A stretch of 64,000 nucleotides of DNA from a virus. Of this stretch, positions 4,437 to 61,855 are shown piece after piece. Where the stretch lies: the IMG/VR virus record IMGVR_UViG_3300044946_000428, positions 1 to 64,000 of that record. One strand, written 5' to 3'. Every line of letters begins with the position of its first letter. The first letter of the stretch is position 1. Below the pieces are notes generated by a model that saw nothing but the letters and a program-made list of their open reading frames with translations, made no database searches and had not been told where the DNA came from. The translations under genes were made by a program, and so were the position numbers.

Positions 4437-4468
4437 AAGGCCCGCAGTCACAACGGACTGCGGGCCTT
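4437..4468. terminator. Perfect 12-bp inverted repeat, probable bidirectional terminator
   Basis: AAGGCCCGCAGT (4437-4448) pairs perfectly with ACTGCGGGCCTT (4457-4468) around an 8-base loop. It lies in the gene-free gap 4331-4558, downstream of the leftward gene at 4559. The rest of this gap shows no convincing gene; a 16-codon frame from 4373 was considered and not supported. Confidence 0.6.
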
Positions 4469-4896: not shown

Positions 4897-5091
4897 TCAG
4901 TCCTGCCTTTCCTGGAACTCGCGGTACTCGTCTTCGGCGTCCTGGAGCCTGTCGCGCAGGGCGTCGACCTCGCGCAGCAGCTCCCGCGCCATGTCCTCCC
5001 AGTCGCCGTCCACGACGTCGCCGTCGTGCTCCTCGGGGATCTCGCCGGCCGCGAGCGCGGCGCGGATCTGGGCTTCACGCTTCGGGTCCAT
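4897..5091 (-). CDS. Small acidic coiled-coil protein, 64 aa
   Basis: The ATG at 5091 has a clear AGGAGG upstream; longer frames read into non-coding composition. The product is almost entirely charged helix: MDPKREAQIRAALAAGEIP, then REVDALRDRLQDAEDEYREF with heptad leucines. Probably an oligomeric or adaptor protein. Function unknown. It sits between two other small leftward genes with gaps of two bases. Confidence 0.6.
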   Translation of the reverse strand: MDPKREAQIRAALAAGEIPEEHDGDVVDGDWEDMARELLREVDALRDRLQDAEDEYREFQERQD

Positions 5092-5093
5092 GG

Positions 5094-5429
5094 TCAAGCC
5101 TCCTTCTCGGCCCGGCGCTGGTCGCGGCCGTACTCGATGATGTCGTTGATGGTGGCGGGGTCGTTGTCGAGGATGCCGGCGATGTCGTCCAAGACAGCGG
5201 CCATGCCATCGCCGTAGCCCGAGACCTCCCAGCCGACACCATCGGCGAGTCGAGCAAGCAGGATGACCCTCAACTCGGCCGGGTCGTCCGGCAGCATCCT
5301 GTGCAGCAGGTCCGCGAGCCATCCTGCCGCGTCGGACACGCCGAGCGCGAAGGCCCCAGTCCCGTCGCCCAACTGCTTCGCACGGTAGGACAGGGCCAGC
5401 AACTGGCGGGTGGACAAGGACTCCGTCAC
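5094..5429 (-). CDS. Hypothetical protein, 111 aa
   Basis: The GTG at 5429 overlaps the previous stop by four bases, typical of coupled translation. The protein is helical and acidic (TRQLLALSYRAKQLG, AAGWLADLLHRMLPDD, VLDDIAGILDNDP). Related wording appears in neighbouring small proteins, so the run may have grown by duplication, but the resemblance is weak. Family not recognised. Confidence 0.6.
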   Translation of the reverse strand: MTESLSTRQLLALSYRAKQLGDGTGAFALGVSDAAGWLADLLHRMLPDDPAELRVILLARLADGVGWEVSGYGDGMAAVLDDIAGILDNDPATINDIIEYGRDQRRAEKEA

Positions 5430-5653
5430 GAGTGCCTCAGGCTGCCACGGTTCGCAAGAACGGCGCGGGCGACGTCGAGGGCGTACGGGTTGATGACGCC
5501 GTGGTCGTCGCCGTCCCAGGCATCTTCGAGCCACGCGGCGAGCGGGCCGCGGACCTCGATATCCACCGACTTGTTGCCGGAACGCAGGGAGTCGACGGCG
5601 AGGCGGACGATGCCAGCCTCCACGTCGTCGGCGGTTATCGCGGTGTGCGCCAT
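5426..5653 (-). CDS. Hypothetical protein, 75 aa
   Basis: Begins MAHTAITADDVEAGIVRLAV at 5653 behind GGAGAC. It is the first gene of the leftward run 5653-4559 and lies just after a hairpin that ends the gene at 5747-6400. The product is small, soluble and acidic. No motif is recognised. Confidence 0.6.
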   Translation of the reverse strand: MAHTAITADDVEAGIVRLAVDSLRSGNKSVDIEVRGPLAAWLEDAWDGDDHGVINPYALDVARAVLANRGSLRHS

Positions 5654-6712: not shown

Positions 6713-7175
6713 CGAGGCGACAGCGCTCTATCGGCTGTTCGACGGCAGCGGCATCCTGCTCTACGCCGGGATCTCCAATGAACCGCCTCGTCGCTGGCGA
6801 GAACACGCCTGCTCTGAGAGTTGGTGGTCGGATGTGCAAACGAAGACTGTGGAGTGGTTCGACTCTCGGGCAGCCGCTGGAGTCGCCGAGTCGACGGCAG
6901 TGGAATCGGAGAGACCGATCTACAACTGCACCCTCCCGGCCCGCGATGGATCGCCGAGTTATCGGCTTCTCGTGCCGAAACCCCGAAAGGGGGTAACGCC
7001 AACGCGGACGTTTAGTTCCCCCGACGACCTGTGGGAGCGCTTCGCAGACGCAGTGCGGAACAGCCCAGACCCCGAGGCCGACATGTCCAAGGTCCTGCGA
7101 CAGTTCTGCCGCTGGTATGTCGGCGACCCTGGTGCGGAGTTGCCCAAGCGGCCAACTGATGCGACGGGCCAATAG
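6702..7175 (+). CDS. GIY-YIG nuclease-like protein, possible toxin, 157 aa
   Basis: Residues 9-45 have the start of a GIY-YIG fold: ALYRLFDGSGILLYAGIS followed by RRWREHA, where Y-R-L and Y-A-G take the places of the GIY and YIG motifs and an Arg/His-rich helix follows. GIY-YIG proteins are single-domain nucleases of homing, repair and restriction systems. The C-terminal half has no recognised domain. Start at ATG 6702 inside the antitoxin-like gene. The pairing suggests a nuclease toxin with its antitoxin. A stand-alone mobile nuclease is the alternative. Confidence 0.65.
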   Translation: MTPDEATALYRLFDGSGILLYAGISNEPPRRWREHACSESWWSDVQTKTVEWFDSRAAAGVAESTAVESERPIYNCTLPARDGSPSYRLLVPKPRKGVTPTRTFSSPDDLWERFADAVRNSPDPEADMSKVLRQFCRWYVGDPGAELPKRPTDATGQ

Positions 7176-7279
7176 CGCCACTTCGGTCGAACACCAGGTC
7201 ACAAGTCCGCAAAGCCGTCACGGCCCGTCAGCCCCCCGAGTACGGTCACGCTCGGTGGATTCCAACCTGAGGGGGACTC

Positions 7280-7954
7280 ATGGAACAGCGACCCGACCAG
7301 CAGCCTGAGTACGGCCAGCCCGACCCGTACGAGCCGACGCGCAGCCGTGGCGGTTCGGCCCCGCCGTACACGCCGCAGGACCCGTACGCAGGCCACGCGC
7401 CGTACTCGACGGGCCAGCAGCAGTACTACGCCCAGCCGGCGCCGCCGAAGAAGAAGCGGGGCGCGCAGATCGCGGGGCTCGGGTGCGCAGGCGTGTTCGC
7501 ACTCATCGTGATCATCGTTGTTGCGGCGGCCGTCAGCGGATCGAAGACCGGCAATACCGCCAGTACGGGCACGACCACACCGCCGGCCACGGCCTCCACG
7601 ACGGTCGCCGGACAGGGAGTACTCGCGAACGTCGCGACCACGGCCGCCCCGCCCGCCGCGCCCGCGAAGACGGTCGTGCTGACGAAGTCCGGCGAGGGCA
7701 TCGAACAAACCCGGTCGTTCACCGTCGGGGACAACTGGTCGCTGACCTATACGTTCGACTGCTCGAACTTCGGAATGCAGGGCAACTTCCAGGTCTACGA
7801 GGACTACCCGGACGGTAACGTCCTGGTGAACGCGCTCGCGAAGTCCGGGTCGGACACGACGTATCAGACCGGGGACGCGGGCACGCACTCGCTTAAGATC
7901 AACTCGGAGTGCGCCTGGACCGTCAAGGTCACGGACGGCGACACCGGACAGTAG
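7280..7954 (+). CDS. Membrane-anchored exported protein with Pro/Gln-rich N-terminus, 224 aa
   Basis: Residues 1-58 are cytoplasmic and rich in Pro, Tyr, Gln and Gly. KKKRG is followed by a single transmembrane segment at about 64-86 (GCAGVFALIVIIVVAAAVSG). A Thr/Ala linker leads to an extracellular beta-rich domain (YTFDCSNFGMQGNF, NSECAWTVKV) with two cysteines. Many actinobacteria carry proteins of this plan, with the outer domain of unknown function. GAGGGGG precedes the ATG. It may be a surface protein of the element or a host-derived passenger. Confidence 0.75.
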   Translation: MEQRPDQQPEYGQPDPYEPTRSRGGSAPPYTPQDPYAGHAPYSTGQQQYYAQPAPPKKKRGAQIAGLGCAGVFALIVIIVVAAAVSGSKTGNTASTGTTTPPATASTTVAGQGVLANVATTAAPPAAPAKTVVLTKSGEGIEQTRSFTVGDNWSLTYTFDCSNFGMQGNFQVYEDYPDGNVLVNALAKSGSDTTYQTGDAGTHSLKINSECAWTVKVTDGDTGQ

Positions 7955-26746: not shown

Positions 26747-26947
26747 ATGACCATGGAGCATGAAGACCTCGCCCGCGGCGCCCGCGTCGAGATCGCCGTC
26801 AGGGCCGCCAGCAAGGGAGATCTCGCGACGGCCGCCGGGATCCTCGCCGGAATGAGCGCGGAGGAACGCGACCAGTTCGGCCCGCTCGTGGCCGCGAGTT
26901 TCCCCGTTTCCGCCCCCGGGCGGCCGTTCGGTGCCGGGACCCCGTGA
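26747..26947 (+). CDS. Small hypothetical protein, 66 aa
   Basis: ATG at 26747 behind AAGGAAC, 13 bases after traB. Helical (DLARGARVEIAVRAASKGDL, GILAGMSAEERDQF). Overlaps the next gene by four bases. Probably part of the transfer operon. Family not recognised. Confidence 0.55.
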   Translation: MTMEHEDLARGARVEIAVRAASKGDLATAAGILAGMSAEERDQFGPLVAASFPVSAPGRPFGAGTP

Positions 26948-27354
26948 GCGCGGCCCCGCTCATCCTCGGTGCCGCCGCAGCCGTCGCGGTGGCCGCCGCC
27001 CGCAGGCGCAGGGACCCGTCGCGCCCGAGCTGGGACGTGCCCGCGGTCCAGCGCCAGCAGGCCGACCGGATCCTCGAGGCCGCCGCGCTCTACCGGGCCG
27101 GGCGCGACGGCGATGCGCGGATCGCGCTGCGCGACCGCGCCCTGGACTGGGGCCTGATCGCCCGTGCCGCGTCGGCTCGCCCGCTCGACCCGGTCGCCCA
27201 CCGCATCGGCGCCGCGATCGGACGCGACGGGAGCGGGATGTTCCTCGGCGAACTGCACTCCCGGCTCGCCCCGGCCGACCGCGAGCGGGCCCTGGCCACC
27301 CTCGCCCAGGCGCTGCTGGACTACACCGGACCCGCCGACGAAGGAGCGCGCTGA
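26944..27354 (+). CDS. Hypothetical protein, 136 aa, possible N-terminal membrane anchor
   Basis: GTG at 26944 in a GTGA overlap. A short hydrophobic N-terminus (APLILGAAAAVAVAAA) is followed by RRRRD and a helical body (QADRILEAAALYRAGRDGDA). Coupled to the membrane protein downstream by TGATG. Transfer-operon member of unknown role. Confidence 0.55.
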   Translation: MSAAPLILGAAAAVAVAAARRRRDPSRPSWDVPAVQRQQADRILEAAALYRAGRDGDARIALRDRALDWGLIARAASARPLDPVAHRIGAAIGRDGSGMFLGELHSRLAPADRERALATLAQALLDYTGPADEGAR

Positions 27355-28004
27355 TGCTCGGCCGAACCCACGCCCTGTCGGGCGCGACCGCTTTCGCCTC
27401 CCTCTCCTGCGCCGCGCCCCTGGTCGGCGTGCATCCGCATTGGGGTGCGATCACGGCCGGGCTGCTTTCCACGGCAGGCGCGGCGCTCCTGCCCGACCTC
27501 GATCATCCACAGGCCACGATCGCGCATTCCTTCGGCCCCGCCACCAAAACCCTGACCCGGATCGTGCACCGGGTCTCCGGCGGCCACCGGCACGCCACGC
27601 ACTCGCTCGCGTTCACCGCCGCGATGCCGCTGCTCACCTGGGCCGGGGACGCGGCGTTCGGTCGCCGGTTCGCCCTGGCCGTCGTCTACGTCCTGTTCGC
27701 GTTCGGGCTCCGCGCGCTGCACCTGGCCCGTGGGCTCGCCCCGGCGGTCGCGCTCGTCCTTACCGTGGTCGTCGGTTGCACGATGCCGCACGACCTCGGC
27801 TGGCTGCCGTTCTCCGTCGGCGTCGGGATAGCCGCGCACCTGGTCGGGGACTGTCTGACGAAGGAGGGCTGCCCGCTGATGTGGCCCCGTCGCGGGCACT
27901 ACATGCTGCCGATCGTGCAGCGGACGGGTAATCGGGTGGAGACGATGCTCGTCGCGCCGCTGTGCATGGCGGGCGCGGTCGCGCTGCTGGTGTTCGCGCG
28001 CTGA
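27354..28004 (+). CDS. DUF457/YdjM-type membrane metal-dependent hydrolase, 216 aa
   Basis: The opening MLGRTHALSGATAFAS, the segment LLPDLDHPQATIA and the motif HRHATHSL are the hallmarks of the YdjM/DUF457 family of multi-pass inner-membrane proteins annotated as metal-dependent hydrolases. His and Asp residues in these motifs would bind metal. About five hydrophobic segments follow. Its role in an element is unknown; homologues often accompany TraB in actinomycete integrative elements. ATG overlaps the previous stop by one base. Confidence 0.75.
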   Translation: MLGRTHALSGATAFASLSCAAPLVGVHPHWGAITAGLLSTAGAALLPDLDHPQATIAHSFGPATKTLTRIVHRVSGGHRHATHSLAFTAAMPLLTWAGDAAFGRRFALAVVYVLFAFGLRALHLARGLAPAVALVLTVVVGCTMPHDLGWLPFSVGVGIAAHLVGDCLTKEGCPLMWPRRGHYMLPIVQRTGNRVETMLVAPLCMAGAVALLVFAR

Positions 28005-36343: not shown

Positions 36344-36351
36344 GGGGTGCC

Positions 36352-36882
36352 ATGCCGGCCTCGAAGGGCAAGCAGGACGAAGTCGCCGAGCGCCGCGAGA
36401 AAGTCCTCGCCCGACGCGCCATCGGAGTACCGCCCGCCGTCATCGCCGCCGAACTCGGCATCAGCGAACAGACCGTCTACGACGACGTGCACCGCATGCT
36501 CAAAGCCCGGCGCGAAACCCTCAACCGCGACAAGGACCTCCTCGTCGTCCTCGAAGCCGAGGAACTCGACGCGATCAAGCGCGCCGCCTGGGAAGCCGCC
36601 TCCACCGTGCACCTGCACGTCTCAGCCTCCGGCCGCGTCAGCACCCACCCCGAGACCGGCGAGCCCCTGCGCGACTTCGCGCCCACCGTCCAAGCCCTCG
36701 GCGTACTCCTGCGCACCCAGGACCGGCGCACCAAACTCCTCGGCCTCGACAGCGCCCAGAAACTCGAGATGCGCGCCGAGGTGGTCACCCTCGATGCCAT
36801 CGACGCTGCTATCGCCGGGCTCCGTCAGCAGATCGACGCGCTCCCTGCACCCGCTCGAACCGGAATACCGGGCGAGGCGTGA
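36352..36882 (+). CDS. Terminase small subunit-like DNA-binding protein, 176 aa
   Basis: N-terminal helix-turn-helix (LARRAIGVPPAVIAAELGIS followed by EQTVYDDVHRML), then long helices (KARRETLNRDKDLLVVLEAE). This is the plan of small terminase subunits, which recognise the packaging site and hand DNA to the large subunit. Position directly before the large terminase supports the call. The ATG at 36352 follows GGGGGTG and lies right after a 14-base direct repeat. Confidence 0.7.
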   Translation: MPASKGKQDEVAERREKVLARRAIGVPPAVIAAELGISEQTVYDDVHRMLKARRETLNRDKDLLVVLEAEELDAIKRAAWEAASTVHLHVSASGRVSTHPETGEPLRDFAPTVQALGVLLRTQDRRTKLLGLDSAQKLEMRAEVVTLDAIDAAIAGLRQQIDALPAPARTGIPGEA

Positions 36883-38509
36883 CGAGTACCAGGCGCTGAG
36901 CCTGGAACTCGCCGAGCGGCGGGCACTCGCGCGCTTCCCCACCCCGGGCGCGCTGGCCAAGGCGATCGACCCGGCAACCGTGCAGACCGCCGCGCTCGAT
37001 GTGATCGACGAAGCGGTCGTCGAAGCATGGCGGACCCCGAACGCCAGGCTCATCATCGCGATGCCGCCGCAGGAGGGGAAATCGGAGCGCGTCACCAAGA
37101 CCGCTTCGCTCTGGCGCCTGATCCAGAACCCCGAGACTCGCCTGGGCATCGTCTCCTACGCCCAGGCGCTGGCCGAGGGGTTCAGCCGCGAGGTACGCAA
37201 CCGGATCACCAGCAACGACGGCGACGAGGGCAGCCTCGACCTGGAACTGCGTATCGCCCGCGACAACGGCTCCGCGCGCCGCTGGCAGTTGTCGGGACAC
37301 CGCGGCGGCATCGTCGCGGTCGGCGCCGGCTCCGGCATCACGGGGCGCCCGCTCGACGGCCTGATCATCGACGACCCGTTCGCCGACGACAAGCAGGCCG
37401 ATTCCGCGTACTTCCGCGACCAGGTGTGGGGCCGGTGGCGCTCGACCTGGTCCACGCGCCTCGCCCCAGGCGCACCCGTCATCGTGATCAATACGCGGTG
37501 GCATGAGGATGACCTGACCGGCCGGCTCGTCGCCGCGGAGGACGGGCACCGCTGGCGCCTGATCAACATTCCGGCGCTCGCCGACCACGACCCCGCCAAG
37601 GGCGAGAGCGACGTCCTGGGCCGCGAACCGGGCCAATGGCTCGACTCCGCCCGCGGGCGTACCCCGGCCGACTGGGAAGCCATCCGGATCCAGGTCGGCT
37701 CCCGCGTGTTCAACGCCCTGTACCAAGGACGCCCGTCGCCTGCGACCGGCAACGTCTGGCGCCGCCCCTGGTGGCGGTTTTACGAGCAGATGCTGTGGAC
37801 CCTCGGCCCGGACGGCGCCTACCGGGTCGAGGCCGACGAGGTCATCCAATCCTGGGACATGGCGTTCAAGGACACCAAGGGAAGCGACTTCGTGGTCGGC
37901 ACCGTGTGGGCGCGGCGCGGCGCGGACGTCTACCTCCTCGACAAGGTCCACAAGAGGCTGACGTTCACCGAGACCCTCACCGCGTTCCAGGCGCTCACCG
38001 CCCGCTGGCCCCAGGCCACCGCGAAGTACGTCGAAGACAAGGCGAACGGCACTGCCGTCATCGACACCCTCAAGAAGAAGATCCCGGGCATCGTCGCGGT
38101 CAACCCGACCGAGTCCAAGTACGCCCGCGCCAACGCCGTCGCGCCGTTCATCGAAGCCGGCAACGTCCACCTCCCGGCGCCGCACGTCGCACTCCCCGAC
38201 GTCGACCCCGACTCCCTCATCGAGGAGGCCGCGGGGTTCCCCAACGCGGCCCACGACGACCAAGTCGACTCCACAAGCCAGGCCCTTGCGAGGCTCCTCT
38301 TGGACGGAACCGGGGCGCAGGCCTGGATCGAGTGGGCCAAGCGCCGCGCTGCCGAAGCCGGCATGACGCCACGTGTCGCCGCGGTGCCCGAACCGGACGC
38401 GCCGGCCGAGCCGGAACCCGAGGCTGAGCCCGACGACCCGGTCGCCCGGCTGCGGGCCGCCCGCACCGCCGCATTAAGAGCCAACCGGTTCACCGCGTCC
38501 TCGAGATAG
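36794..38509 (+). CDS. terL: Terminase large subunit (packaging ATPase/nuclease), about 571 aa
   Basis: ATPase motifs: Walker A-like MPPQEGKSE at about residues 90-98 and Walker B LIIDDPF at about 189. Nuclease motifs: SWDMAFKDTKGSDF near 353 and AAHDDQVDSTSQAL near 485, the acidic RNase H-like site, with VEDKANGTA between. It cuts and pumps phage DNA into proheads. The ATG at 36794 overlaps the small subunit by 89 bases; a later non-ATG start near 36850 would leave less overlap, so the first 20-30 residues are uncertain. The C-terminus has a Pro/Glu linker and basic tail. Confidence 0.9.
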   Translation: MPSTLLSPGSVSRSTRSLHPLEPEYRARRDEYQALSLELAERRALARFPTPGALAKAIDPATVQTAALDVIDEAVVEAWRTPNARLIIAMPPQEGKSERVTKTASLWRLIQNPETRLGIVSYAQALAEGFSREVRNRITSNDGDEGSLDLELRIARDNGSARRWQLSGHRGGIVAVGAGSGITGRPLDGLIIDDPFADDKQADSAYFRDQVWGRWRSTWSTRLAPGAPVIVINTRWHEDDLTGRLVAAEDGHRWRLINIPALADHDPAKGESDVLGREPGQWLDSARGRTPADWEAIRIQVGSRVFNALYQGRPSPATGNVWRRPWWRFYEQMLWTLGPDGAYRVEADEVIQSWDMAFKDTKGSDFVVGTVWARRGADVYLLDKVHKRLTFTETLTAFQALTARWPQATAKYVEDKANGTAVIDTLKKKIPGIVAVNPTESKYARANAVAPFIEAGNVHLPAPHVALPDVDPDSLIEEAAGFPNAAHDDQVDSTSQALARLLLDGTGAQAWIEWAKRRAAEAGMTPRVAAVPEPDAPAEPEPEAEPDDPVARLRAARTAALRANRFTASSR

Positions 38510-38521: not shown

Positions 38522-41500
38522 GTGGCCGTGCGCGACGAAGTACGAGACCAGCCCGGCGCCATGGGTCCGAGCCGTGCGCTTCAGGCCCGCGCCCGCGCCG
38601 ACCTCGTGCGCAAGGTCGGCGGCAGCACGCAGGCGTCGGCGCTCAAGCCGGTTGAGAGCCCGGCCGTGACACGCCAGCGCAGCCGTGCCCAGCGCGCCCA
38701 GGGTGCGGAACTCGCGCCGGTGTCGAAGGTATTCGGTACCGCGGTGCCCGCGGACATCGCCGCAGCCGAGGTCGCCTCCGGCATGGACTCGACGACGCCG
38801 TTCTCCCCGGGCGCCCCCCTCAGTCCTTACGACGGGTTCTCGCGCACCCCGCGGTCACGCAACTTCGTCCCGCAATACAACGCCTCCGCCCGGCCCAGGT
38901 CGAATGAGCGCGTCTCGTTCGACACGCTCCGCGGCCTGATCGAGTCCTACGACTTCGCACAGATCTGCATCTGGCACCGCATCGACTCGCTGCGCGCCCT
39001 CGAATGGTCGCTCGTCGCAGCAGACGGTCACGAGGGAGACGTGTCGGACGCGGTCGCGGCCGGCATGGCGGTGCTGAAGAAGCCGGACCGCAAGACGCCG
39101 TTCGACGCGTGGCTCGCGAAGTTCGCCTACGACATCCTCGCGTTCGACGCGGGCGCCCTGTGGCGCATGCGAAACCGGGCCGGACAAGTCGTCGGGATCA
39201 AGACGGTCGACGGGACCACCCTGGCTCCGCTGCTCGACGACTGGGGCGACACGCCCGAGGACGGCGCGCCCGCATTCGTCCAGTACGTCAACGGCTTGCC
39301 CTGGAACTGGCTGACGACCGACGACCTGATCTACCAGCCGTTCCGGCAGCGCACGAACACGATCTACGGCACGGCGCCGCTCGAGTCCATCCTGCTCAAC
39401 GCGAACACCGACCTGCGGTTTCAGGCCTACTTCCTGCAGCGCTTCACCGAGGGCAACCTGCCGGCCGCGTTCGCCAGCGCCCCGAGCGAGTGGACCCCGC
39501 AGCAGATCGAGCAGTTCCAGGAGTACTGGGACGGATTCATCCTCGGCGACCAGTCCTTCAAGAGCCAGGTCCGGTGGATCCCGCCAGGCAGCAAGATCGA
39601 GTGGAGTAACGAGAAGGACTTCACCGACGCGTTCTCGCTGTTCATGATGCGCAAGACGGCGAGCGCCTACCACGTCGTGCCCGCCGACCTCGGGTTCACC
39701 GAGAACGTCAACAAGTCCAGCGGCGAGACCCAGTCGGACGTACAGCATCGTGTCGGGGACGTCCCGCTCGCCAAGCACATCGCCTCGATCCTCACCGCGT
39801 TCCTCCAAGACGACCTGCACCTGCCGGTCAAGTTCCTCTACGACTTCGGTGAGGAACAGGACGACCGGTACCAGACGGCGCAGGCCGACGACCTGTACAT
39901 CAAGAACGGCACCGTCTCCAACTCCGACATCAGGGAGTTGCGCTTCGGCCTGTCGGAGCCCGACGGCAAGCGCACCCCGCGGTTCATCTACTCCAACCGC
40001 AGCGGGCCCGTCCCGCTGTCCGCGCTCGAAGCGGTCGCCGGGCCGATCGACCCCGAGTCCGGCGCCCCCGAGCCGGGCGCGCCGCTGCCCCACACCGTGT
40101 TCCAGCCCGTCGAAGGCGTCGAAGGCAACCCGCCGACGCCCCGGCCGCCGCTCGCCGTCGAGCAGTACGGTCCGGGCGCGCTACCGGTTGCGGCACCCCA
40201 GTCGGTGCCCGCGCTGCCGCCCGCGCCAGTCCAGGCCGCGCTGACCCCCGCCCTGGTGGCGAAGGACGGCGACGGCGGTGGCGCACCCACCGCCGGAATC
40301 ACCTCGGCAACCGGGATCACTTCCTACGACCTCGTCGGCCACCACCAGGGCAACGAGGACGACGACGAGACCCCGGCGCCGAGGATGACCGTCACCAAGG
40401 GTGCCGAAGCCCGCGCAGCCGAACTTGCCGCATTCCGCACCTTCCTCAAGGGGCGTAGGCGCGACGGCCGCTGGCGCGACTTCACCTTCACCGCCATCGA
40501 CCCCGTCAAGGCGCACCGGCTCAACGACACTGGGCGCCTCGCCGTACGCAAGGCCGTGGGCCAGGTCGCGGTCGCAGGGCTCGCGGTTCTCGCCGCGGAC
40601 ACCGGGCGCGTCCTCATGCTCCAGCGGGCGCTGGACGAAGACGACCCGGCATCCGGCACCTGGGAGATGCCCGGCGGCCACATCGAAGGCGACGAAACAC
40701 CGCTCGAAGGCGCAGCCCGCGAGTGGGCCGAGGAAACCGGCTGCACACCGCCCGCCGGAATCCAAGTCGCCACGTGGACCAGCCCCGACGGCATCTACCA
40801 GGGCATCGTGTGGCTCATCGGCCGCGAAGCCGACGTGCCCGTCTTCGACGGGCGCGACCAGGTCACCAACCCGGACGACCCCGACGGGGACAAGATCGAA
40901 GCGATCGCCTGGTGGAACCCGAGCCAGCTGCCGGACAACCCGGCCGTGCGCCCGGAACTACTGGACTCGATCGACGCGGTCATGGACGCACTCGGGCGCG
41001 TCACGGTAGTCAAGGCGACCGGCGGTGACCCCAGCGGCCCAAAAGCTGACGCCTCCGCCAAGGAGGCGTCCAGCCGCTGGCCCGGATGGGACCACGACGA
41101 AGCCACCGCCGAGCACTGGGCGCGCAAACTCACCGACGGCTACACCGCCGCGCTAAGCCGGGCCCACGCCGAACGGATCGCATCCTCGTTCCTCGCCGCG
41201 CACCCGGCCGACGGCGCCAAGCGCACCAAGGCCGAGACCGCCGCCCTCGCAGCCGCGCTCACCGCTGCGGCCCTCGCGCACCTCGAGGACCAAGGCCTCG
41301 ACCTCACGGGCCCCGCCGCCGCCACGCTGCAAGGCCTCTACGCCGACGCGTACCTCATCGGCGCAGCCAGCGGCAACGCAGTCATCGACGGCGGCAAGCC
41401 CACACTCACCGGATGGAAGCCCGGCGACACCGACCAGGCACACCACCTGATCGAGGCGCTCGCGCTCGGCACCGGCCTCGCCGCGCTCCTCATGCGGGCG

Positions 41501-41872
41501 CCCGAAACCGCAGCAGCCATGTCGAACACGCGCATGGCCGCGCTCGCCGCGGCCCTCGCTACCGGCGCGGCCAGCGGCCAGTCCGCCGCCATCATCGCCG
41601 GGTCGCTCATCGCAGTCCTCGGCGCGGCGTGGCGGTCGCTGACCGCCGCGGTCAGCGAAGTCACCAGCGGATCCAGCGCCGGAGCATCCGACACCTACCA
41701 GAGGCGCGACGTGACGCTCGTGCGCTGGGCGCTCGACCCCTCAAGCAAAAGCTGCCCCGTCTGCATCGGCAACGCCAACGCGCAGCCCAGAGCCCTCGGG
41801 CGGACATGGCCCAGCGGCGACGCGAACCCGCCCATCCACGGCCGGTGCCGCTGCTCGCTCATCCCGGCCTAG
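38522..41872 (+). CDS. Portal - Nudix - MuF head protein fusion, 1116 aa
   Basis: Residues about 100-540 are a phage portal of the DUF935/Mu gp29-like type (FDTLRGLIESYDFAQICIWH, YLQRFTEGNLPAAFASAP, FSLFMMRKTASAYHVVPADL). After a Pro-rich linker, residues about 678-823 are a Nudix hydrolase with a complete Nudix box (GHIEGDE..., then REWAEETGC). From about 853 to the end is an Ala-rich helical region closing in SCPVCIGNANAQ and HGRCRCSL, the C-terminal pattern of MuF-type head morphogenesis proteins. Portal and MuF normally are separate genes; an inserted intact Nudix domain is very unusual. The gene's TAG shares CTAG with the convergent endonuclease gene's stop. Confidence 0.8.
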   Translation: MAVRDEVRDQPGAMGPSRALQARARADLVRKVGGSTQASALKPVESPAVTRQRSRAQRAQGAELAPVSKVFGTAVPADIAAAEVASGMDSTTPFSPGAPLSPYDGFSRTPRSRNFVPQYNASARPRSNERVSFDTLRGLIESYDFAQICIWHRIDSLRALEWSLVAADGHEGDVSDAVAAGMAVLKKPDRKTPFDAWLAKFAYDILAFDAGALWRMRNRAGQVVGIKTVDGTTLAPLLDDWGDTPEDGAPAFVQYVNGLPWNWLTTDDLIYQPFRQRTNTIYGTAPLESILLNANTDLRFQAYFLQRFTEGNLPAAFASAPSEWTPQQIEQFQEYWDGFILGDQSFKSQVRWIPPGSKIEWSNEKDFTDAFSLFMMRKTASAYHVVPADLGFTENVNKSSGETQSDVQHRVGDVPLAKHIASILTAFLQDDLHLPVKFLYDFGEEQDDRYQTAQADDLYIKNGTVSNSDIRELRFGLSEPDGKRTPRFIYSNRSGPVPLSALEAVAGPIDPESGAPEPGAPLPHTVFQPVEGVEGNPPTPRPPLAVEQYGPGALPVAAPQSVPALPPAPVQAALTPALVAKDGDGGGAPTAGITSATGITSYDLVGHHQGNEDDDETPAPRMTVTKGAEARAAELAAFRTFLKGRRRDGRWRDFTFTAIDPVKAHRLNDTGRLAVRKAVGQVAVAGLAVLAADTGRVLMLQRALDEDDPASGTWEMPGGHIEGDETPLEGAAREWAEETGCTPPAGIQVATWTSPDGIYQGIVWLIGREADVPVFDGRDQVTNPDDPDGDKIEAIAWWNPSQLPDNPAVRPELLDSIDAVMDALGRVTVVKATGGDPSGPKADASAKEASSRWPGWDHDEATAEHWARKLTDGYTAALSRAHAERIASSFLAAHPADGAKRTKAETAALAAALTAAALAHLEDQGLDLTGPAAATLQGLYADAYLIGAASGNAVIDGGKPTLTGWKPGDTDQAHHLIEALALGTGLAALLMRAPETAAAMSNTRMAALAAALATGAASGQSAAIIAGSLIAVLGAAWRSLTAAVSEVTSGSSAGASDTYQRRDVTLVRWALDPSSKSCPVCIGNANAQPRALGRTWPSGDANPPIHGRCRCSLIPA

Positions 41873-43104
41873 TCCCAGAGGGCCATCTGTCCTTTGACTG
41901 GGCGGATCGCGCCGCGAGCTCCGCGATTGAACTTCAATCGAACTCGCCTGCTGCGGGCAATGGACGCCCCGGCGACATCAGCCAACTCAAGCCCCGTGGC
42001 TGCACGCAAACGGGCAAGGATGAACTGGCCGAGATCGGCAGCGCCGTTCACGTCAGACTCGGCGAGCCGGACGACCGTCCATCCGGCAGCATTCATCGCC
42101 GCGTCGCGCCTGGCGTCCCGGTCCGCAAGGATCGCGTGCCAGTAGTCCCCGTCGGCTTCGATAGCTATCTTGCGCTCCGGGATGGCGAAGTCGATCGACC
42201 AGCGGCGGAATGGGTACTCCTGAGTGAATCCGACGCCCAGGGCTTCGAGCGCCACCCGGACCCGAGCCTCCAGTTGCGTCTCGCCCACGTGCTGGCGGAC
42301 GCACGGTATCGAACAGAACCGCGTGCTATCGCAGGCTGACTTGCGGAACTCCTTGCCGCAGTTCTGGCAGGCGACCATCAGTGGCGGCCGACGGCATGCC
42401 TCGGAGCAGTAGTGCCGGTTCCAGCGCTGACGGACATCGTCGGTGAACCGCTTACCGCACCGCTTGCAGTTGATGTACACCGTGTCCACGTTCTTGCAGG
42501 CCATTGAGCACGTCTGGTAGCGGCCGTCGTTGGAGCGCGCGATGGTGAAGTCCTTGCCGCATACGGGGCACGTCTTGGTAATCATGCGCGCGCCGCTGAT
42601 GCACTTCATGGAGCAGAAGGCTCGACCGTTTGCGGCCGGGCGCGTCCTGATGACCGGAGCGCCGCACCTCGCACAGTCGTAGGCGTAGCGCTGCGGGGCG
42701 TCGCAAATGGCGACGTGCCGGGGGTTCACGCAACTGCGATGCGGATCGCCGTCGCCAGGCGTCGAGCAGTCATCGGTGCAGCAGGCGTGACCAACCTCGC
42801 GCCCATCGGGTATGGGGCCCACGAAGTGCTCATATGCGAAGCGGTGGGCCGTCCGGAGCTTCGGGTGTTCAAAGATGTAGCCGAAGCCGGTTTTCGGGTG
42901 AACGGTGCTGAGCCACGGCCAGCATGCGTCTGGGCCGCCAGACCTGTCGCTGTAGGCGAGAAATCGGATGATGGGCTCAACGTGGGCCTTCGGCTTGAAC
43001 GCCGCAACGCGAGGCAGTAGGGATTCGATGTAGTGCTCAAGGCACAGGCCGTCCATCGTCGGCCCGTCGACACAACCGGGCCCTGAGCATGTAGATTCGG
43101 ACAC
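41869..43104 (-). CDS. Free-standing homing endonuclease: HNH, four zinc ribbons and Vsr-like nuclease, 411 aa
   Basis: The only minus-strand gene of the head operon. Residues 61-135 are an HNH domain of the phage type (CWPWLSTVHPKTGFGY, HRFAYEHFVGPIPDG, CVNPRHVAI). Residues 144-268 hold four C-x2-C...C-x3-C ribbons (CARC/CSMKC, CPVC/CSMAC, CKRC/CSEAC, CQNC/CSIPC). Residues 276-355 are a Vsr/DUF559-type PD-(D/E)XK domain (LEARVRVALEALG, SIDFAIPERKIAIEADGDYW). The GTG at 43104 has AGGAG upstream; a TTG at 43176 would lengthen it. Likely a mobile gene inserted between portal and protease genes. Confidence 0.78.
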   Translation of the reverse strand: MSESTCSGPGCVDGPTMDGLCLEHYIESLLPRVAAFKPKAHVEPIIRFLAYSDRSGGPDACWPWLSTVHPKTGFGYIFEHPKLRTAHRFAYEHFVGPIPDGREVGHACCTDDCSTPGDGDPHRSCVNPRHVAICDAPQRYAYDCARCGAPVIRTRPAANGRAFCSMKCISGARMITKTCPVCGKDFTIARSNDGRYQTCSMACKNVDTVYINCKRCGKRFTDDVRQRWNRHYCSEACRRPPLMVACQNCGKEFRKSACDSTRFCSIPCVRQHVGETQLEARVRVALEALGVGFTQEYPFRRWSIDFAIPERKIAIEADGDYWHAILADRDARRDAAMNAAGWTVVRLAESDVNGAADLGQFILARLRAATGLELADVAGASIARSRRVRLKFNRGARGAIRPVKGQMALWD

Positions 43105-43172
43105 GTCGGCTCCTATCCAGTCGGCCACGCCCCCGGACGGTGACAGCCGTTGCGGGGGTCTCGCGCACTCAT

Positions 43173-43195
43173 TCAATTCTACCGGAATGAATTGA
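43173..43195. promoter_or_regulatory. Inverted repeat and -10 box at the endonuclease 5' end
   Basis: TCAATTC (43173-43179) and GAATTGA (43189-43195) are perfect inverted repeats. Read leftward, TAGAAT (43176-43181) is a good -10 box for the endonuclease gene. This AT-rich patch stands out from the surrounding GC and marks the probable insertion edge. Confidence 0.5.
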
Positions 43196-43214: not shown

Positions 43215-45620
43215 GTGCCCGAAGAGCAAAGATTCGTTTTGGGAATCGCTTATCAGGCTGGCCCCGACCCTCGCATTAAAAGAGGGATGGATGGCGGTCG
43301 TGACTGGATAAGTAAGGCCGACTTAGAGCGCGCGGCCTGGAGTTACATGCGCTCTGGCTGCCCTCAGATAAACGCCTTCCACATCGATGGCACGGAGGAC
43401 TGCGCCGAGCCTGTCGAGTCGTTCATCTGGCGCTGGCCTGACTGGGATGTTGGCGACGGCATCGTCGTGAAGGACGGCGACTGGTGTTTGGGCGCGATCC
43501 TGAGCCCGCACATGTGGGACCTCCACAAGCAGGGCAAGGTCAACGGGCTGTCCCCTCAGGGCACTGCCCGGCGCCTCCGAGTACAGAAGGAGGGCGCCGT
43601 GGCGCTCGCGAAGACCTCGGCCGATGCGCTGGACGATCCGGACGATGACGGCGAGTTCACGCAGATCACGGAAGCAACCATCCCCACTGTGGCGCTGGTC
43701 GGCAATGGTGCGAACGGAATTCCGAGGTTCCTGATGAGCAAGCAGGAAGGCGCTGTCGGACTGCTCGACGCGGACTACGTGCGCGACCTGATCGCGAAGT
43801 CGGAACCCGAGACCACGGAGAGGGTGACCATGACTGGCAGCCCGGCCGCGATCGCGGCACTCATCCACGGCGCACCGATCCGCAAGGCGGACCCGGCGAA
43901 GGCGCGGGAGCCGGGCGAGGTCGAGAAGGCCGAGGCCTCAGCCCAGTCCATGAACGACAGGCCTGACAGCGACTTCGCGTATGTCGAGGCCGGCGGCAAG
44001 AAGGACGAGTCCGGCAAGACCGTGCCCCGCTCCCTGCGCCACTTCCCGATCTACGACGCCGCGCACGTGCGCAACGCCCTGTCTCGCGCGCCGCAGTCCC
44101 CGTTCGGCGACAAGGCCATGCCGAAGATCCGGTCCGCGGCCAAGAAGTTCAACATCGACGTGTCCAAGGAGACCGCCGACGCCCCCGAGCAGACCGAGGT
44201 GACCAAGGACATGGACGACATGCCGATGGACGACGAGGGCGGCATGGACCCGTGCATCGTCCTGGCCGAACCCGAGGACGAGGCGCCCGGCGACGCGGGC
44301 GACCCCGGCTCCCCGGCGTGGGAAGCCATCGATGCCGCCACCGCCCGAAAGTGGACCGGCATCGCCTCGCGCCTGCGATCCACCCTCGGCGTGATGTCGG
44401 ACCGCGAGTCCCTCGAGGCCGCCACCGTCGACCCTGACGACGCCGAAGCCGCGATGGATCTCGCCGATGCCGCATGTGCCATGGACTACGTCATCTCCGT
44501 GCTCGCCTGCTTCGCGGCCGACGAGCAGGCCGAGGTCGACGACGCCGTCATGGCGATGGTCGGCAAGTCCATCGGCGCCCTCGACCCGGCGCACCTCGAC
44601 ACCGTCGAGTCCCTCGGCGCCGTCCGCAAGGCCGGCCGGACCCTCTCGGCCGCCAACGAATCCGCGCTGCGCGCCGCGATCCAGGCCCTGCAGCAGATCC
44701 TCGCGAGCCTCCCGCCCGCACCCGTCACGAAGGAGGCCGGGGAGCCGGTCGCCAAGACCGCCAACGAGGAGAGCGACATGCCGACCCCCACCCCGTCCGA
44801 GGACGTTACCGCCGCGTCCGGCCAGGAGCCCGCCATGGGCGCCGCCGACGCCGCGCCGAAGCCCATCGCGGGCGTCGCCGTCACCGACGTGACCAAGGCC
44901 GCCGACGAGGCCACGCCGGTCGCGAAGGCCGAGAAGACCCCGCAGGTCGCGATCTACGACGCGAACGGCAACCTGGTCGGCACCGTCGACCCCGCCGAGA
45001 TCACGATGCTCGCCCCCGCGAAGGCCCCCGAAGCCGCCGCTAAGGCCGACGACATGCTGGACGAGCCCGCGGCCCCCGCCGCCGAGGCCCCGGCCGCCCC
45101 CACAGACCTGACGCCGGCACCCCCGGCGTCCGTCGGCACCCCCGCCGACGCCGTACCGGCCGACGACGATTCTGTCGCCAAGGCCGCCGAGACGACCGGA
45201 AACAACGAGGCACCACAGGACGTGCTCAAGGGCAGCATCCAGGAACTGGTCAAGGCAGCGATCGCCGAGCACAGCGCCCCCCAGGGCGAGCTCATCAAGT
45301 CGCTGGAGGCCCAGAACCTTGAGCTGAAGGAGCGCAACGAGGCCCTCGCCAAGCAGGCCGCCGAACTCGGCGACCGCCTGACCAAGGTCGAGAACCAGCC
45401 CGCCGTCATGGCCATCGCCTCCAACGGCGCCATCCCGCCCGCGCACCAGATGCGAGGGCAGAACCGCGGCGCCGGCGTCGACATGACCCAGGGCCAGATC
45501 CTCAAGGCTCGCCTTGCCGCCTCCGACGACGCCGTCGAGAAGAAGGACATCGCCAACCAGATGCAGGACCTGGCGTTCGCCCGCTTCCAGGAGATGCAGC
45601 AGGCCGCCCGCGCCCGATAG
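43215..45620 (+). CDS. XkdF-like prohead protease with scaffold region, 801 aa
   Basis: Residues 1-130 match XkdF-type phage proteases (RFVLGIAYQAGPDPRIKRGM, KADLERAAWSYMRSG, DWCLGAILSPHMWDLHKQGK). A second segment at about 250-310 (RSLRHFPIYDAAHVRNALSR, KIRSAAKKFNI) is a short conserved unit seen in head proteins. The rest is Ala/Pro/Asp-rich, with a coiled coil at about 692-730 (SLEAQNLELKERNEALAKQA), as expected for scaffold. Protease and scaffold in one chain cut themselves during head maturation. GTG at 43215; the endonuclease insertion just upstream may have altered the extreme N-terminus. Confidence 0.72.
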   Translation: MPEEQRFVLGIAYQAGPDPRIKRGMDGGRDWISKADLERAAWSYMRSGCPQINAFHIDGTEDCAEPVESFIWRWPDWDVGDGIVVKDGDWCLGAILSPHMWDLHKQGKVNGLSPQGTARRLRVQKEGAVALAKTSADALDDPDDDGEFTQITEATIPTVALVGNGANGIPRFLMSKQEGAVGLLDADYVRDLIAKSEPETTERVTMTGSPAAIAALIHGAPIRKADPAKAREPGEVEKAEASAQSMNDRPDSDFAYVEAGGKKDESGKTVPRSLRHFPIYDAAHVRNALSRAPQSPFGDKAMPKIRSAAKKFNIDVSKETADAPEQTEVTKDMDDMPMDDEGGMDPCIVLAEPEDEAPGDAGDPGSPAWEAIDAATARKWTGIASRLRSTLGVMSDRESLEAATVDPDDAEAAMDLADAACAMDYVISVLACFAADEQAEVDDAVMAMVGKSIGALDPAHLDTVESLGAVRKAGRTLSAANESALRAAIQALQQILASLPPAPVTKEAGEPVAKTANEESDMPTPTPSEDVTAASGQEPAMGAADAAPKPIAGVAVTDVTKAADEATPVAKAEKTPQVAIYDANGNLVGTVDPAEITMLAPAKAPEAAAKADDMLDEPAAPAAEAPAAPTDLTPAPPASVGTPADAVPADDDSVAKAAETTGNNEAPQDVLKGSIQELVKAAIAEHSAPQGELIKSLEAQNLELKERNEALAKQAAELGDRLTKVENQPAVMAIASNGAIPPAHQMRGQNRGAGVDMTQGQILKARLAASDDAVEKKDIANQMQDLAFARFQEMQQAARAR

Positions 45621-47195: not shown

Positions 47196-47253
47196 GCTTC
47201 GGCCTGTGGCTTTCTCTGCGTCGCCCCGACGGGATGGCAGAAGCCTGTGGTAC

Positions 47254-47294
47254 GATGTAGAGAACGAAATCGACTTGATTTCGTTCTCTACATC
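47254..47294. repeat. Perfect 18-bp inverted repeat upstream of the HNH gene
   Basis: GATGTAGAGAACGAAATC (47254-47271) is the exact reverse complement of 47277-47294, with a five-base loop GACTT. The right arm ends two bases before the ribosome site GGAGGGAAG (47293-47303 region). TACGAT overlapping the left arm may be a -10. It could be a cleavage-target relic, an operator or an mRNA hairpin hiding the start. Confidence 0.85.
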
Positions 47295-47303
47295 GGAGGG
47301 AAG

Positions 47304-48329
47304 ATGACGGTCCACACCGGCGGAATCTGCTCGATCGAAGAGTGCCCAAAGCCCATGTTCGGCCGCACGTGGTGTTCCGCCCACTATGCGCTCTGGCGAA
47401 AGTACGGCGACCCACGGTCCCCCGTGCGCGCCTACGCGAAGCAAGGGCCCACGTGTACCGAAGACGGCTGCGACAGCCCACCCAAGTCCGGCGGCCTGTG
47501 CGTAAAGCACCGCCACCTAATGGACCGTCACGGAACGACCGAGGATTCTCGGTCGCGCCGCTTCTGGCAGAAGGTCAACAAGGACGGGCCCATTCCCGCC
47601 AGCCGACCCGAGCTGGGGCCGTGCTGGATATGGACGGGCTATGTAGCCCCAAAGACGGGATACGGCCAGTACGGCGGCCATGGGTCGGGCAGGTCGCGGC
47701 TGGTACATCGGGTCGCCTACGAGTACCTCGTTGGGCCGATACCTGAGGGCATGCACCTGGACCACCTGTGCAGGAATCGGCAATGCGTCAACGCGCTCCA
47801 GCACTTGGAGCCCGTGCCCCCGCGCGAGAACATCCTTCGCGGGGATCAGGGCGCCTTCTGGGGCTACGTTCCCGAGGTAGTGCCCCCGGCGCCCAGGAGC
47901 GAGAAGCCCGAGATCTGCTCCGAACCGGGCTGCTCGCGCCGCGCAGCCAATCCGTCCAAGCGCGGCATGTGCCGTCCCTGCTACCGGGTGTGGCTCAAGC
48001 GCGAGGACCGCCCTGTGCCCCTTACGGTCGAAGAACGGTTCTGGGCGAAGGTCGACAAGGACGGGCCCATCCCGGAGCATAAGCCCGAGTTGGGGCCCTG
48101 CTGGGTATGGACCGCAGGCATCAACTCGAAGACGGGATACGGGCGCTTCGGCGTGAAGCACGGGCACATGATGGACGCCCACCGCTATGCCTACCTCCTG
48201 GAGCACGGCTCGATTCCCGAGGGCTTCGAAGTGCACCACGAATGCCACCGTCGCCGTTGCCTCCGCATAGATCACCTACGAGCCGTGTCTCGCGCGGAGA
48301 ACGTGGCCGAGCGCAAAGTGCGCCGTTAG
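47304..48329 (+). CDS. Homing endonuclease with duplicated zinc-finger/HNH unit, 341 aa
   Basis: Two halves repeat each other. Half one has Cys-His fingers (CSIEEC...CSAH, CTEDGC...CVKH) and an HNH domain at 86-180 (CWIWTGYVAPKTGYGQYG, HLDHLCRNRQCVN). Half two has CSEPGC...CRPC and an HNH domain at 245-335 (CWVWTAGINSKTGYGRFG, VHHECHRRRC). HNH enzymes nick or cut DNA and spread as mobile genes. The ATG at 47304 follows GGAGGGAAG. It lies between the major capsid gene and the next head gene, and is related in its HNH type to the gene at 41869. Confidence 0.85.
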   Translation: MTVHTGGICSIEECPKPMFGRTWCSAHYALWRKYGDPRSPVRAYAKQGPTCTEDGCDSPPKSGGLCVKHRHLMDRHGTTEDSRSRRFWQKVNKDGPIPASRPELGPCWIWTGYVAPKTGYGQYGGHGSGRSRLVHRVAYEYLVGPIPEGMHLDHLCRNRQCVNALQHLEPVPPRENILRGDQGAFWGYVPEVVPPAPRSEKPEICSEPGCSRRAANPSKRGMCRPCYRVWLKREDRPVPLTVEERFWAKVDKDGPIPEHKPELGPCWVWTAGINSKTGYGRFGVKHGHMMDAHRYAYLLEHGSIPEGFEVHHECHRRRCLRIDHLRAVSRAENVAERKVRR

Positions 48330-59566: not shown

Positions 59567-59575
59567 GGGGTGGCG

Positions 59576-61855
59576 GTGGCGACTCCCGTTTACAGCGCGG
59601 CGCAGGCCGGCATCGTCGGCAACGCCGGTGCCATCGCGGCGTCCGCGCAGGTCGACCAGTTCCTCGGGACGCACGCCGACACGATCGTGTACCAGGGCGC
59701 TTCGATCCTGACGCCGAACGGCACGGGCGGCACCGCGTGGAACTATCAACTTTCCACGCAGGACATCGACCAGCCGTTCGCAATGTCCGGCACGGCGATC
59801 GGGCGCGTCGCGATTCCGCTGCTGCCAGTGGGGAATGGTGCCGACCTGCTCGTCAGCCTGTGCGCGGACAACTCCGGCACGCCCGGCACGATGCTCAGCC
59901 AAACCCGCGTTCCGGCATCGTGGATCACGCAACTTGCTGCCGTCTCCGGCAGCTCCGGGCCGTCCAACGGCAGCCCTTCCGTGCAGTACACGGGCAACCC
60001 GCTGGCCGCAGCACAGTTCAACTCGTTCCACATGTCGGCCCCGGCCACCAAGTCATGGCCGTACCCAACGAGCGGTACCGGCGGCCCGTCCACATTCCCC
60101 TCCTCCACCTATGTCGGCGACGAGTTCGTCCAGGTCGGCGGGAGTGTCGGCTCCACCCTGTACAACAACGTGTACACGATCCCGTATAACGCGAACGGGA
60201 CCCTCGCGCCGGCGGTTGTCCAGCCCGCGTTCCCCTCCGTCACCGACGGGTCGGCGACCGGCGCCGCCTATACAGACTCCAGTGGAAACCAGACCCTGTT
60301 CGTCGTCGGCGGCTGCGAGACGCCCAACGTGCCCGTATCCGCCGTCTACGCCGCCAGCATGGACGCCTCGACCGGCAACATCAACTCGTGGTCGCAGCAG
60401 ACCTCCCTGCCGTACGCCACGAACCTCGCTGGCGCTGTCGCCAGCAACGGATATCTCTACGTCCTCGGCGGCCCGTTCAGCACGACGCCGACGACCAACG
60501 TCTACTACGCGGCGATATCCAACGGCCAGATCGGGTCATGGACCGCGACGACGCCGCTCCCGCTGGCGCTTTCTGCATTCTTCACCGTCGTGTCGAACGG
60601 ATTCCTGTTCATCATCGGCGGAGTGACCCCCAGCACCATCGGGCTGTCCACCGTCTACTATGCCCCGCTGCTGGCCAACGGCGCGATCGGGGCGTGGCGC
60701 GCGGGGCCGCCGCTGTCGGTGACGCTGTATCAGGCGAGCGGACTGCCGGTGATCACGGCGGGCGGCTATGGGATCATCGTCAACGGCAGCGCGACACTGT
60801 CCATGCTCGGGGTGGGGCCGGGCGGCCCCGATTCCGCATGGCAGACCGCGAACCTGTTCCTGGGCGGCGACTTCATCGCCGCCGCCGGCTCCAGCGCCGG
60901 GCTGTGGCAGTACTACGGCCTGTACCAGTCGTCGTACACGACGATGCCGATCAGCCTTACGCCTCGGATCTCAGTCCCGCTGCCCGCCACGGGCCTGACC
61001 AGCGGCGGGACCTACCACATCCTTATGCAGCAGCAGGGCGGGGATCCGAACGACTATCTGCGCACGCACCTCGACGTGGACGTCTTCACCGGAAATCCGA
61101 CGCTGCAGACGTCACCGAGGGGCACGTACACGTGGACGGCCGCTGCCGCAGGCAATGCCGTGCCGATCCAGATCTACGACCAGACCGCGTTCGGCCTGCC
61201 GCTGCATACGTGGGAAGACTCGGGCGCCCGCGTCACCACGATCGTGCGCTCCACGACCCCGGACCAGCGGGTGCTCGGCCTGTGCGAGGCGACCCGCATG
61301 GGGCTCGGCCTCAACCAGAACCAGGGCTTCGAGTCCGGGCTGACCCCGTGGACGGTTTCGGGCGGCACGCTCTCGCAGTCCACCGCCCAGTCCTACGCCG
61401 GGATCCACTCCGCGCAGATCACCCCGTCCGGGTCCAGCGCGCAGGTCGGGCTGAGCTCCGAGACCCTCGCCTGCCTGCCCGGGCAGTCGGTCACCGTGGC
61501 CGCGCGGTTGTGGTTCACCTCCGCCGTCACGACGAACGCGTCGATATCCGTCAACTGGTTCACATCCGGCGGGGCGTACATCACGACCTCGTACAACGAA
61601 GTCTCCGTGGCGGCCACGACATGGACGCAGATCGCGAACACGTTCACCGCCCCGGCCACCGCCTACGGCTTCACGATCAACCCGACGCTCGGCGGCACCC
61701 CCGCCGCAACACAGATCTGGTACGTCGACAACATCATCGCGACCTACACGTACACCGGGGCGCAGCAGTCCTCGGTCACCGAGTTCTCCTACGCCAGCGT
61801 CTGGCCGGCGACCGGCGCGGCACCCGTCCTGACGTCCACGACAGTCCTGGCCTGA
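59576..61855 (+). CDS. Receptor-binding tail protein with kelch-like propeller and CBM-like domain, 759 aa
   Basis: GTG at 59576 has AGGGGG at the right spacing; another GTG lies at 59570. Residues 1-160 share homology with the preceding protein. Residues about 177-375 contain kelch-like blades, each with a hydrophobic strand ending GG and then a tail like NGQIGSWTATTPLP or NGAIGAWRAGPPL. Residues about 490-560 hold the shared HTWEDSGAR segment. Residues about 581-725 resemble a carbohydrate-binding module (NQGFESGLTPWTVSGGTLSQ). It most likely binds host surface sugar. Confidence 0.7.
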   Translation: MATPVYSAAQAGIVGNAGAIAASAQVDQFLGTHADTIVYQGASILTPNGTGGTAWNYQLSTQDIDQPFAMSGTAIGRVAIPLLPVGNGADLLVSLCADNSGTPGTMLSQTRVPASWITQLAAVSGSSGPSNGSPSVQYTGNPLAAAQFNSFHMSAPATKSWPYPTSGTGGPSTFPSSTYVGDEFVQVGGSVGSTLYNNVYTIPYNANGTLAPAVVQPAFPSVTDGSATGAAYTDSSGNQTLFVVGGCETPNVPVSAVYAASMDASTGNINSWSQQTSLPYATNLAGAVASNGYLYVLGGPFSTTPTTNVYYAAISNGQIGSWTATTPLPLALSAFFTVVSNGFLFIIGGVTPSTIGLSTVYYAPLLANGAIGAWRAGPPLSVTLYQASGLPVITAGGYGIIVNGSATLSMLGVGPGGPDSAWQTANLFLGGDFIAAAGSSAGLWQYYGLYQSSYTTMPISLTPRISVPLPATGLTSGGTYHILMQQQGGDPNDYLRTHLDVDVFTGNPTLQTSPRGTYTWTAAAAGNAVPIQIYDQTAFGLPLHTWEDSGARVTTIVRSTTPDQRVLGLCEATRMGLGLNQNQGFESGLTPWTVSGGTLSQSTAQSYAGIHSAQITPSGSSAQVGLSSETLACLPGQSVTVAARLWFTSAVTTNASISVNWFTSGGAYITTSYNEVSVAATTWTQIANTFTAPATAYGFTINPTLGGTPAATQIWYVDNIIATYTYTGAQQSSVTEFSYASVWPATGAAPVLTSTTVLA

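Follow-up and report, generated by a model that had tools for sequence, protein, structure and literature searches.

A Nudix hydrolase domain in an exchangeable slot of a phage portal-MuF fusion protein

Why should a nucleotide hydrolase be built into the middle of a phage head protein? This question is raised by a stretch of 64,000 nucleotides (the window; positions 1 to 64,000 of IMG/VR record IMGVR_UViG_3300044946_000428, a virus contig of 111,156 bases), in which a single frame without interruption (38522-41872, plus strand, 1116 codons, GTG start) encodes portal, Nudix hydrolase and MuF-like domains. A preliminary description of this DNA had proposed the three domains in one frame and a complete Nudix box. 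Both points were borne out, the former by the open frame together with Pfam and PHROGs domain matches and the latter by the catalytic G, E, R, E, E and E residues, which are intact in 71/71 relatives. Its belief that no such fusion had been described did not hold, since passages of PMC9503650 report fusions of Nudix domains with MuF, with the portal and with the prohead protease, and it missed that the slot holding the Nudix domain is exchangeable. A virion-borne nucleotide hydrolase would be a sensible reading of the gene.

The portal slot and its occupants

We compared the window protein with that of its closest relative, the locus L007. Amino acid identity was 81% in the portal, 88% in the linker and 78% in MuF, but 22%, which is noise, in the slot between linker and MuF. 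Blastn aligned window positions 38726-40527 (79.9% identity) and 41036-41888 (80.9%) and left out 40528-41035, which is replaced in L007, with clean edges on both sides, by a 550-nt cassette (6800-7349). This cassette encodes a 2H phosphoesterase (PF13563, E 5.2e-8; AlphaFold2 mean predicted local distance difference test [pLDDT] 91.6). A first IMG/VR scan of 34 loci had returned mostly the portal-Nudix-MuF chain of the window, with 2H in place of Nudix in L030, L031 and L035 (PF13563, E 1.5e-7, 5.7e-8 and 2.4e-7, respectively).

Slot occupancy was then counted on loci found with the portal alone, irrespective of what their slots contained, and the window was added (87 loci with 76 distinct portals). 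Four portals (L043, L066, L072 and L109) were dropped since their contigs end too early. Among the 72 remaining, the slot held Nudix in 59 (interrupted in 4), 2H in 8, both in 1 (L042) and nothing in 4. These frequencies hold for portals near that of the window, because the viral-contig scans gave best-ranked relatives (the best 80 of 236 portal relatives and the best 80 of 274 Nudix relatives). Hidden Markov models (HMMs) were used for Nudix and 2H, so that domains of other kinds could be overlooked, although the sequences of the four empty slots were also inspected by eye. A connector at about residues 633-675 is common to Nudix, 2H and empty-slot relatives, and in the four empty-slot proteins it passes directly into MuF. 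Thus, portal and MuF do not need an enzyme between them.

On the portal tree of these 72 rows we counted 12 changes of slot state, compared to a mean of 12.6 for shuffled labels (as low in 67/200 shuffles); the observed states thus show no more clustering than random assignment gives. The eight 2H rows need eight separate changes, all forced by well-supported branches. On this tree the window and L007 are joined next by L042, which carries the tandem portal-Nudix-2H-MuF and whose aligned protein equals L007 plus Nudix, or the window plus 2H. An approximately unbiased (AU) test did not reject the window and L042 Nudix domains as sisters (p 0.848), and the 2H domains of L007 and L042 are sisters with a support of 79.9; the cassette trees are in this way compatible with loss from a tandem of this kind. 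A wider census of 141 loci was enriched by Nudix and 2H queries and was not used for frequencies. In that biased set 2H or Nudix also occurs after MuF or in other orders, and L250 has portal, Nudix, 2H and MuF in one chain of 1282 amino acids (Pfam). These comparisons show, at the level of sequence, that Nudix is one occupant of an exchangeable cassette which is replaced, doubled or absent while portal and MuF are kept. That the slot of close relatives is filled by another enzyme, by both or by nothing suggests an interchangeable tool of the soil-phage particle.

The 2H occupant keeps its catalytic HxT/HxT tetrad in 59/62 aligned sequences. The model of the L007 domain matched drCPDase (Z 15.7), LigT (14.5) and Usb1 best (Z 14.3-15.7 for the three), and Acb1 at 10.8; the Acb1 Pfam model PF23474 matches 2/62 slot 2H domains. 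The record of the window contains one Nudix in total, and a 2H search of that record, which had no positive control, gave no match. Conversely, a separate Nudix lies elsewhere in 2/9 records of 2H-slot phages, neither of the slot type; the one in the record of L007 (L267, 55283-55609, minus strand) resembles ADP-ribose pyrophosphatases by eye. At L247, two 2H domains (3939-4439 and 4974-5465) share one locus, the first being divergent and without part of the tetrad. Arthrobacter phage Edmundo gp18 (L265), an annotated capsid maturation protease with a 2H-like stretch, is another head protein carrying 2H.

The fusion gene, its domains and its relatives

We next give the evidence for each domain of the fusion gene (Table 1). 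For the portal, PF04860 matched residues 154-473 (E 3.8e-12; 46.5 bits, above the gathering cut-off of 39.1) and PHROGs returned phrog_2662 (E 5e-54); these two matches are independent, whereas the local portal HMM was built with the window sequence included. The GTG start is putative because homology in most relatives begins only at residues 45-68; an AGGGGGA stretch can be read 7 nt upstream of it. The MuF label is secured through relatives, since the window's own match is weak: phrog_115 covers residues 1012-1115, and no Pfam family, PF04233 included, was reached at E <= 0.01 within residues 855-1116. Among 15 aligned MuF sequences, PF04233 matches 9 (best E 6.9e-10) and the C-terminal motif is invariant in all; the Sonali protein matches PF04233 with E 2.2e-9.

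Table 1. Features of the fusion gene and its flanking head genes (window coordinates)
Feature	Position	Strand	Evidence
Terminase large subunit, true start probably downstream	36347..38509	+	phrog_38 3.9e-102; Terminase_6C 8.8e-20
Portal-Nudix-MuF fusion gene, 1116 aa, GTG start	38522..41872	+	Open reading frame and domain matches
Portal domain, residues 85-500	38774..40021	+	Local portal HMM E 3.2e-233; PF04860; phrog_2662
Pro/Ala/Asp-rich linker ending in conserved connector	40022..40527	+	Relatives compared
Exchangeable cassette, stretch not common to L007	40528..41035	+	Blastn flanks 79.9% and 80.9% identical
Nudix domain, residues 687-807	40580..40942	+	Pfam PF00293 8.2e-19; AlphaFold2 and fold comparison
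Nudix box G-x5-E-x7-REWAEETGC, residues 719-741	40676..40744	+	Catalytic positions invariant 71/71
MuF-like minor head protein domain, residues 855-1116	41084..41869	+	phrog_115 E 0.0029; aligned family PF04233 9/15
MuF C-terminal motif C-x2-C ... P-x-H-x2-CRC	41753..41854	+	Invariant 15/15
XkdF-type prohead protease, long C-terminal extension	43215..45620	+	Peptidase_S78_2 3.9e-6; phrog_3017 head maturation protease 2.1e-13

PF00293 scored 68.4 bits on the window protein (gathering cut-off, 21.1) and was matched by 71/71 aligned Nudix sequences. The box GX5EX7REUXEEXGU is complete except for a Cys at the last hydrophobic place; its last G is present in the window and in 59/71 aligned sequences. 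After the box, all six named places of a segment N-P-D-D-x-D-x-D are invariant in this alignment. The box is catalytically intact, judged by its residues. An AlphaFold2 model of residues 672-833 made on the same 71 sequences had a mean pLDDT of 89.8 and a predicted template modelling (pTM) score of 0.84, which gives a confident Nudix fold where the preliminary description had placed one (678-823). Foldseek and VIA-align returned Nudix hydrolases, with Z >= 8 for 676/995 PDB chains aligned to the model. PADLOC gave one weak Nudix match, PDC-S07. With regard to the T4 NudE-like clade used in PMC9503650, a NudE (phage IME08) ranked 22nd in BFVD (E 4.8e-6), without special closeness in that ranking.

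The fusion recurs in numerous viral contigs, in the Arthrobacter phages Sonali and Mufasa8, and in genomes of Streptomyces, Kitasatospora and Catenulispora. Nudix domains of this type are also found on other head proteins: cyanophage Pam4 has one on MuF, and L273 and Streptomyces phage Gilgamesh have one on the S78 protease. In six named genomes with the portal there was one Nudix match each at E <= 1e-20 among 113-149 first-look candidates. At the same threshold, 297 Streptomycetaceae genomes (12 of the first-look candidates scored in each) yielded six places in five genomes, all in head-protein frames: the portal is the fusion partner in five of them and the S78 protease in the other. Such head-protein frames make it likely that the hosts of this phage group are Streptomycetaceae or related Actinomycetota. 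A Nudix tree with outgroups had too little resolution to establish a single origin of all head-fused Nudix domains (14/103 inner branches starred, several long branches).

Some Nudix coding regions are interrupted, by an HNH-like gene in L026 (4692-5014; same contig as L117) and by other inserts in L084, L099 and L103; in L025 a frame change lies at the same spot. A search for group I and II introns at Rfam gathering thresholds in five loci (including L084, L099, L103 and L117) and the window gave 0 matches. L035, L036, L011, L150 and L226 carry intein-like or LAGLIDADG/Hint inserts, which lie within the portal or MuF part or follow it.

The fusion gene lies in a head operon, with the large terminase upstream and the XkdF-type prohead protease downstream. 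An enzyme fused to a head component and encoded in the head operon is what is expected of a virion-borne (polyvalent) effector. Between the fusion and protease genes, a minus-strand frame (41869-43176) matches HNH_3, Zn-ribbon and DUF559/Vsr-like nuclease models. As the corresponding interval is short in L007, a homing-type nuclease gene seems to have been inserted here recently. Elsewhere, the window encodes a YdjM membrane protein (26931-28004), an HNH_3 endonuclease (47247-48329) and a kelch and CBM_4_9 protein (59570-61855).

Possible roles of the slot enzymes

With somewhat less than an even chance of being right, we read the cassette as an accessory, virion-mounted enzyme module acting on nucleotide-type molecules (ADP-ribose-, NADH- or FAD-like compounds or RNA ends), plausibly against defence signals. 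The portal subunit would carry an accessory Nudix pyrophosphohydrolase between its portal and MuF parts, in a swappable cassette, and the chain would be built into the virion in up to 12 copies per portal ring. The C-terminal crown of portals lies inside the capsid. The enzyme would thus face the capsid interior on a long flexible linker, a placement that comes from general portal topology and is not a result of this analysis. It may either be cut loose, possibly by the XkdF-type protease encoded by the next head gene, and enter the cell with the DNA, or work from the particle or procapsid. Its substrate would be a nucleoside diphosphate linked to another moiety (NDP-X; ADP-ribose, NADH or FAD-like) or a capped RNA end, and its most plausible role would be to blunt a nucleotide-based host response. 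On this view, Nudix and 2H would alternate because the signals or RNA ends that the phages meet differ between hosts. Nucleotide-type phosphodiester and pyrophosphate chemistry is a theme common to both enzymes, which fits counter-signalling and also RNA-end processing.

A bolder version, which we consider doubtful as a whole, would make the portal vertex of this group of actinobacterial phages a standard dock for interchangeable counter-defence enzymes. Nudix and 2H would degrade different nucleotide immune signals, and host defences would decide whether a cassette is exchanged, stacked or dropped. The prohead protease would free the enzymes from the ring of 12 subunits, so that they enter together with the DNA.

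Some points weigh against a virion-mounted module directed at defence signals and others for it. Portals are not known to be ejected, and delivery would for this reason require cleavage. Loss from a tandem ancestor explains the window, L007 and L042 as well as a swap does, since L042 is their next relative; either way, enzyme content would turn over while the structural parts stay. In favour of the module, median dN/dS (ratio of nonsynonymous to synonymous substitution rates; portal 0.368, linker 0.603, Nudix 0.315; 66 sequences, 1985-1991 of 1991 pairs) puts Nudix under constraint similar to that on the portal and stronger than that on the linker, but these values are only relative because dS is near saturation and codons are GC-biased. 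No NCBIfam model or substrate equivalog was matched over its cut-off, and MutT-type models matched weakly. The best fold match of the Nudix model, mycobacterial RenU (6uuf_A; Z 16.2, root mean square deviation 3.2, 143 aligned), is a likeness of 19% identity and a common fold and assigns no substrate; RppH and Ap4A hydrolases trail it at Z of about 13.4. On the other side, RenU hydrolyses, and prefers, ADP-ribose, FAD and NADH according to the part of PMC4401782 concerned with it, which speaks for the module. Against it, the 2H domain is nearer to RNA 2',3'-cyclic phosphodiesterases and LigT than to Acb1, a result that points to RNA ends no less than to immune signals.

RNA-end processing in place of anti-signalling is an alternative of some weight, unlikely but far from idle. 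Nudix would be a decapper or pyrophosphohydrolase and 2H a 2',3'-cyclic phosphodiesterase, delivered early or acting late, on host or phage RNA. The alternation is explained here because both belong to RNA-end enzyme classes: BdRppH, E. coli RppH and Dcp2 are among the further matches of the Nudix model (Z 12.4-13.4), and the three best matches of the 2H model are RNA-end enzymes. However, the best Nudix match (Z 16.2 vs 13.4) is an NDP-X enzyme with low nucleoside triphosphate (NTP) activity in the relevant part of PMC4401782, and no RNA ligase was seen in the slot among the proteins scanned by Pfam.

Housekeeping late in infection, i.e., nucleotide sanitising or recycling near the packaging vertex or in the late cell, with the portal as a carrier that fixes dose and timing, appears improbable. 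The strongly conserved catalytic residues, the single Nudix in the record and the weak MutT-type matches would suit it; empty-slot relatives, replacement by 2H with its unrelated chemistry and no sign of NTP specificity speak against it. We consider it very improbable that the module is non-enzymatic and serves the portal as a structural spacer or as a sensor that binds a ligand. Different folds are tolerated in the slot and Nudix sensors of the NrtR type exist (section of PMC9503650 on these domains), but the metal-binding E and R residues are invariant in 71/71 sequences and the replacing 2H keeps its tetrad in 59/62. A frame error or assembly artefact joining separate genes can practically be dismissed, since the fusion occurs in many independent genomes (the same single frame in 55 of the 141 deduplicated loci not cut by a contig end, and in Sonali and Mufasa8), even if MuF is a separate, overlapping gene in L016, L019, L029, L046, L074 and L189.

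Comparison with known systems

Among the systems compared with the virion-mounted module proposed here are the isolated phages Sonali and Mufasa8, whose gp3 (MK411746 and NC_049478, respectively) have portal, Nudix and MuF in one chain (Pfam, all three) beside terminase and head protease. Mufasa8 gp3 is annotated as a MutT/NUDIX hydrolase and Sonali gp3 as a portal and MuF-like fusion. Their portals are 42-43% identical to that of the window; the NPDDPDG segment that follows the Nudix box is missing from both, as is most of the 633-675 connector. A portal with a C-terminal Nudix is also seen in PHROG phrog_15528 and in the deposited gp17 of Burkholderia phage Bcep781 (Naesvirus), where the Nudix is only 32% identical, MuF is not fused and the next gene is a head morphogenesis gene. 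The anti-CBASS (cyclic-oligonucleotide-based anti-phage signalling system) enzyme Acb1 is not known to be fused to a head protein. Acb1, the proven case of 2H counter-signalling, has the same fold and HxT/HxT tetrad as the slot 2H occupant, with a weaker fold match than CPDase and LigT (relevant passages of PMC9117128).

In the passages concerned, Iyer et al. 2022 (PMC9503650, section 3.5.2) describe Nudix domains fused to MuF, portal and prohead peptidase that may be packaged and injected, the same pairing and proposal as for the gene studied here; those passages do not contain the three-in-one chain, the Nudix/2H alternation in one slot, the Nudix-2H tandem or the empty slots. Some Nudix domains, of the NrtR type, are treated there as sensors. 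Fusions of 2H to portal or MuF are likewise in print (passages of Iyer 2017, PMC5512222, and PMC9503650) and involve the enzyme class that alternates with Nudix here, but are not presented there as alternative occupants of one orthologous slot. PMC9503650 proposes counter-signalling for Nudix and 2H alike, and PMC5512222 does so for 2H, again in the passages on these enzymes. RyR-domain phage proteins are reported to degrade ADPR signals (PMC13232231). In Microbacterium phages, the accessory enzyme VIP2 is carried on MuF in Percival and absent from the Floof homologue, and clusters EA and EB have portal-MuF fusions; this enzyme is an ADP-ribosyltransferase, and the corresponding passages of PMC7302621 mention no Nudix.

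So far, the case for virion-carried effectors has been built on domain fusions found here and there. Four slot states on a single orthologous portal-MuF backbone make the idea testable by comparing close relatives, and the isolated phages Sonali and Mufasa8 and the Streptomyces and Kitasatospora genomes are starting points. Such work could reveal the host molecules that a phage neutralises at the very start of infection, and the way in which structural genes serve as carriers of accessory enzymes. In the open-licence PMC literature, outside of which most subscription journals lie, we found no account of an orthologous portal slot whose content varies among Nudix, 2H, both and none. Nudix-head, portal-MuF and 2H fusions are already in print, and what appears to be new is the orthologous portal slot with its four states.

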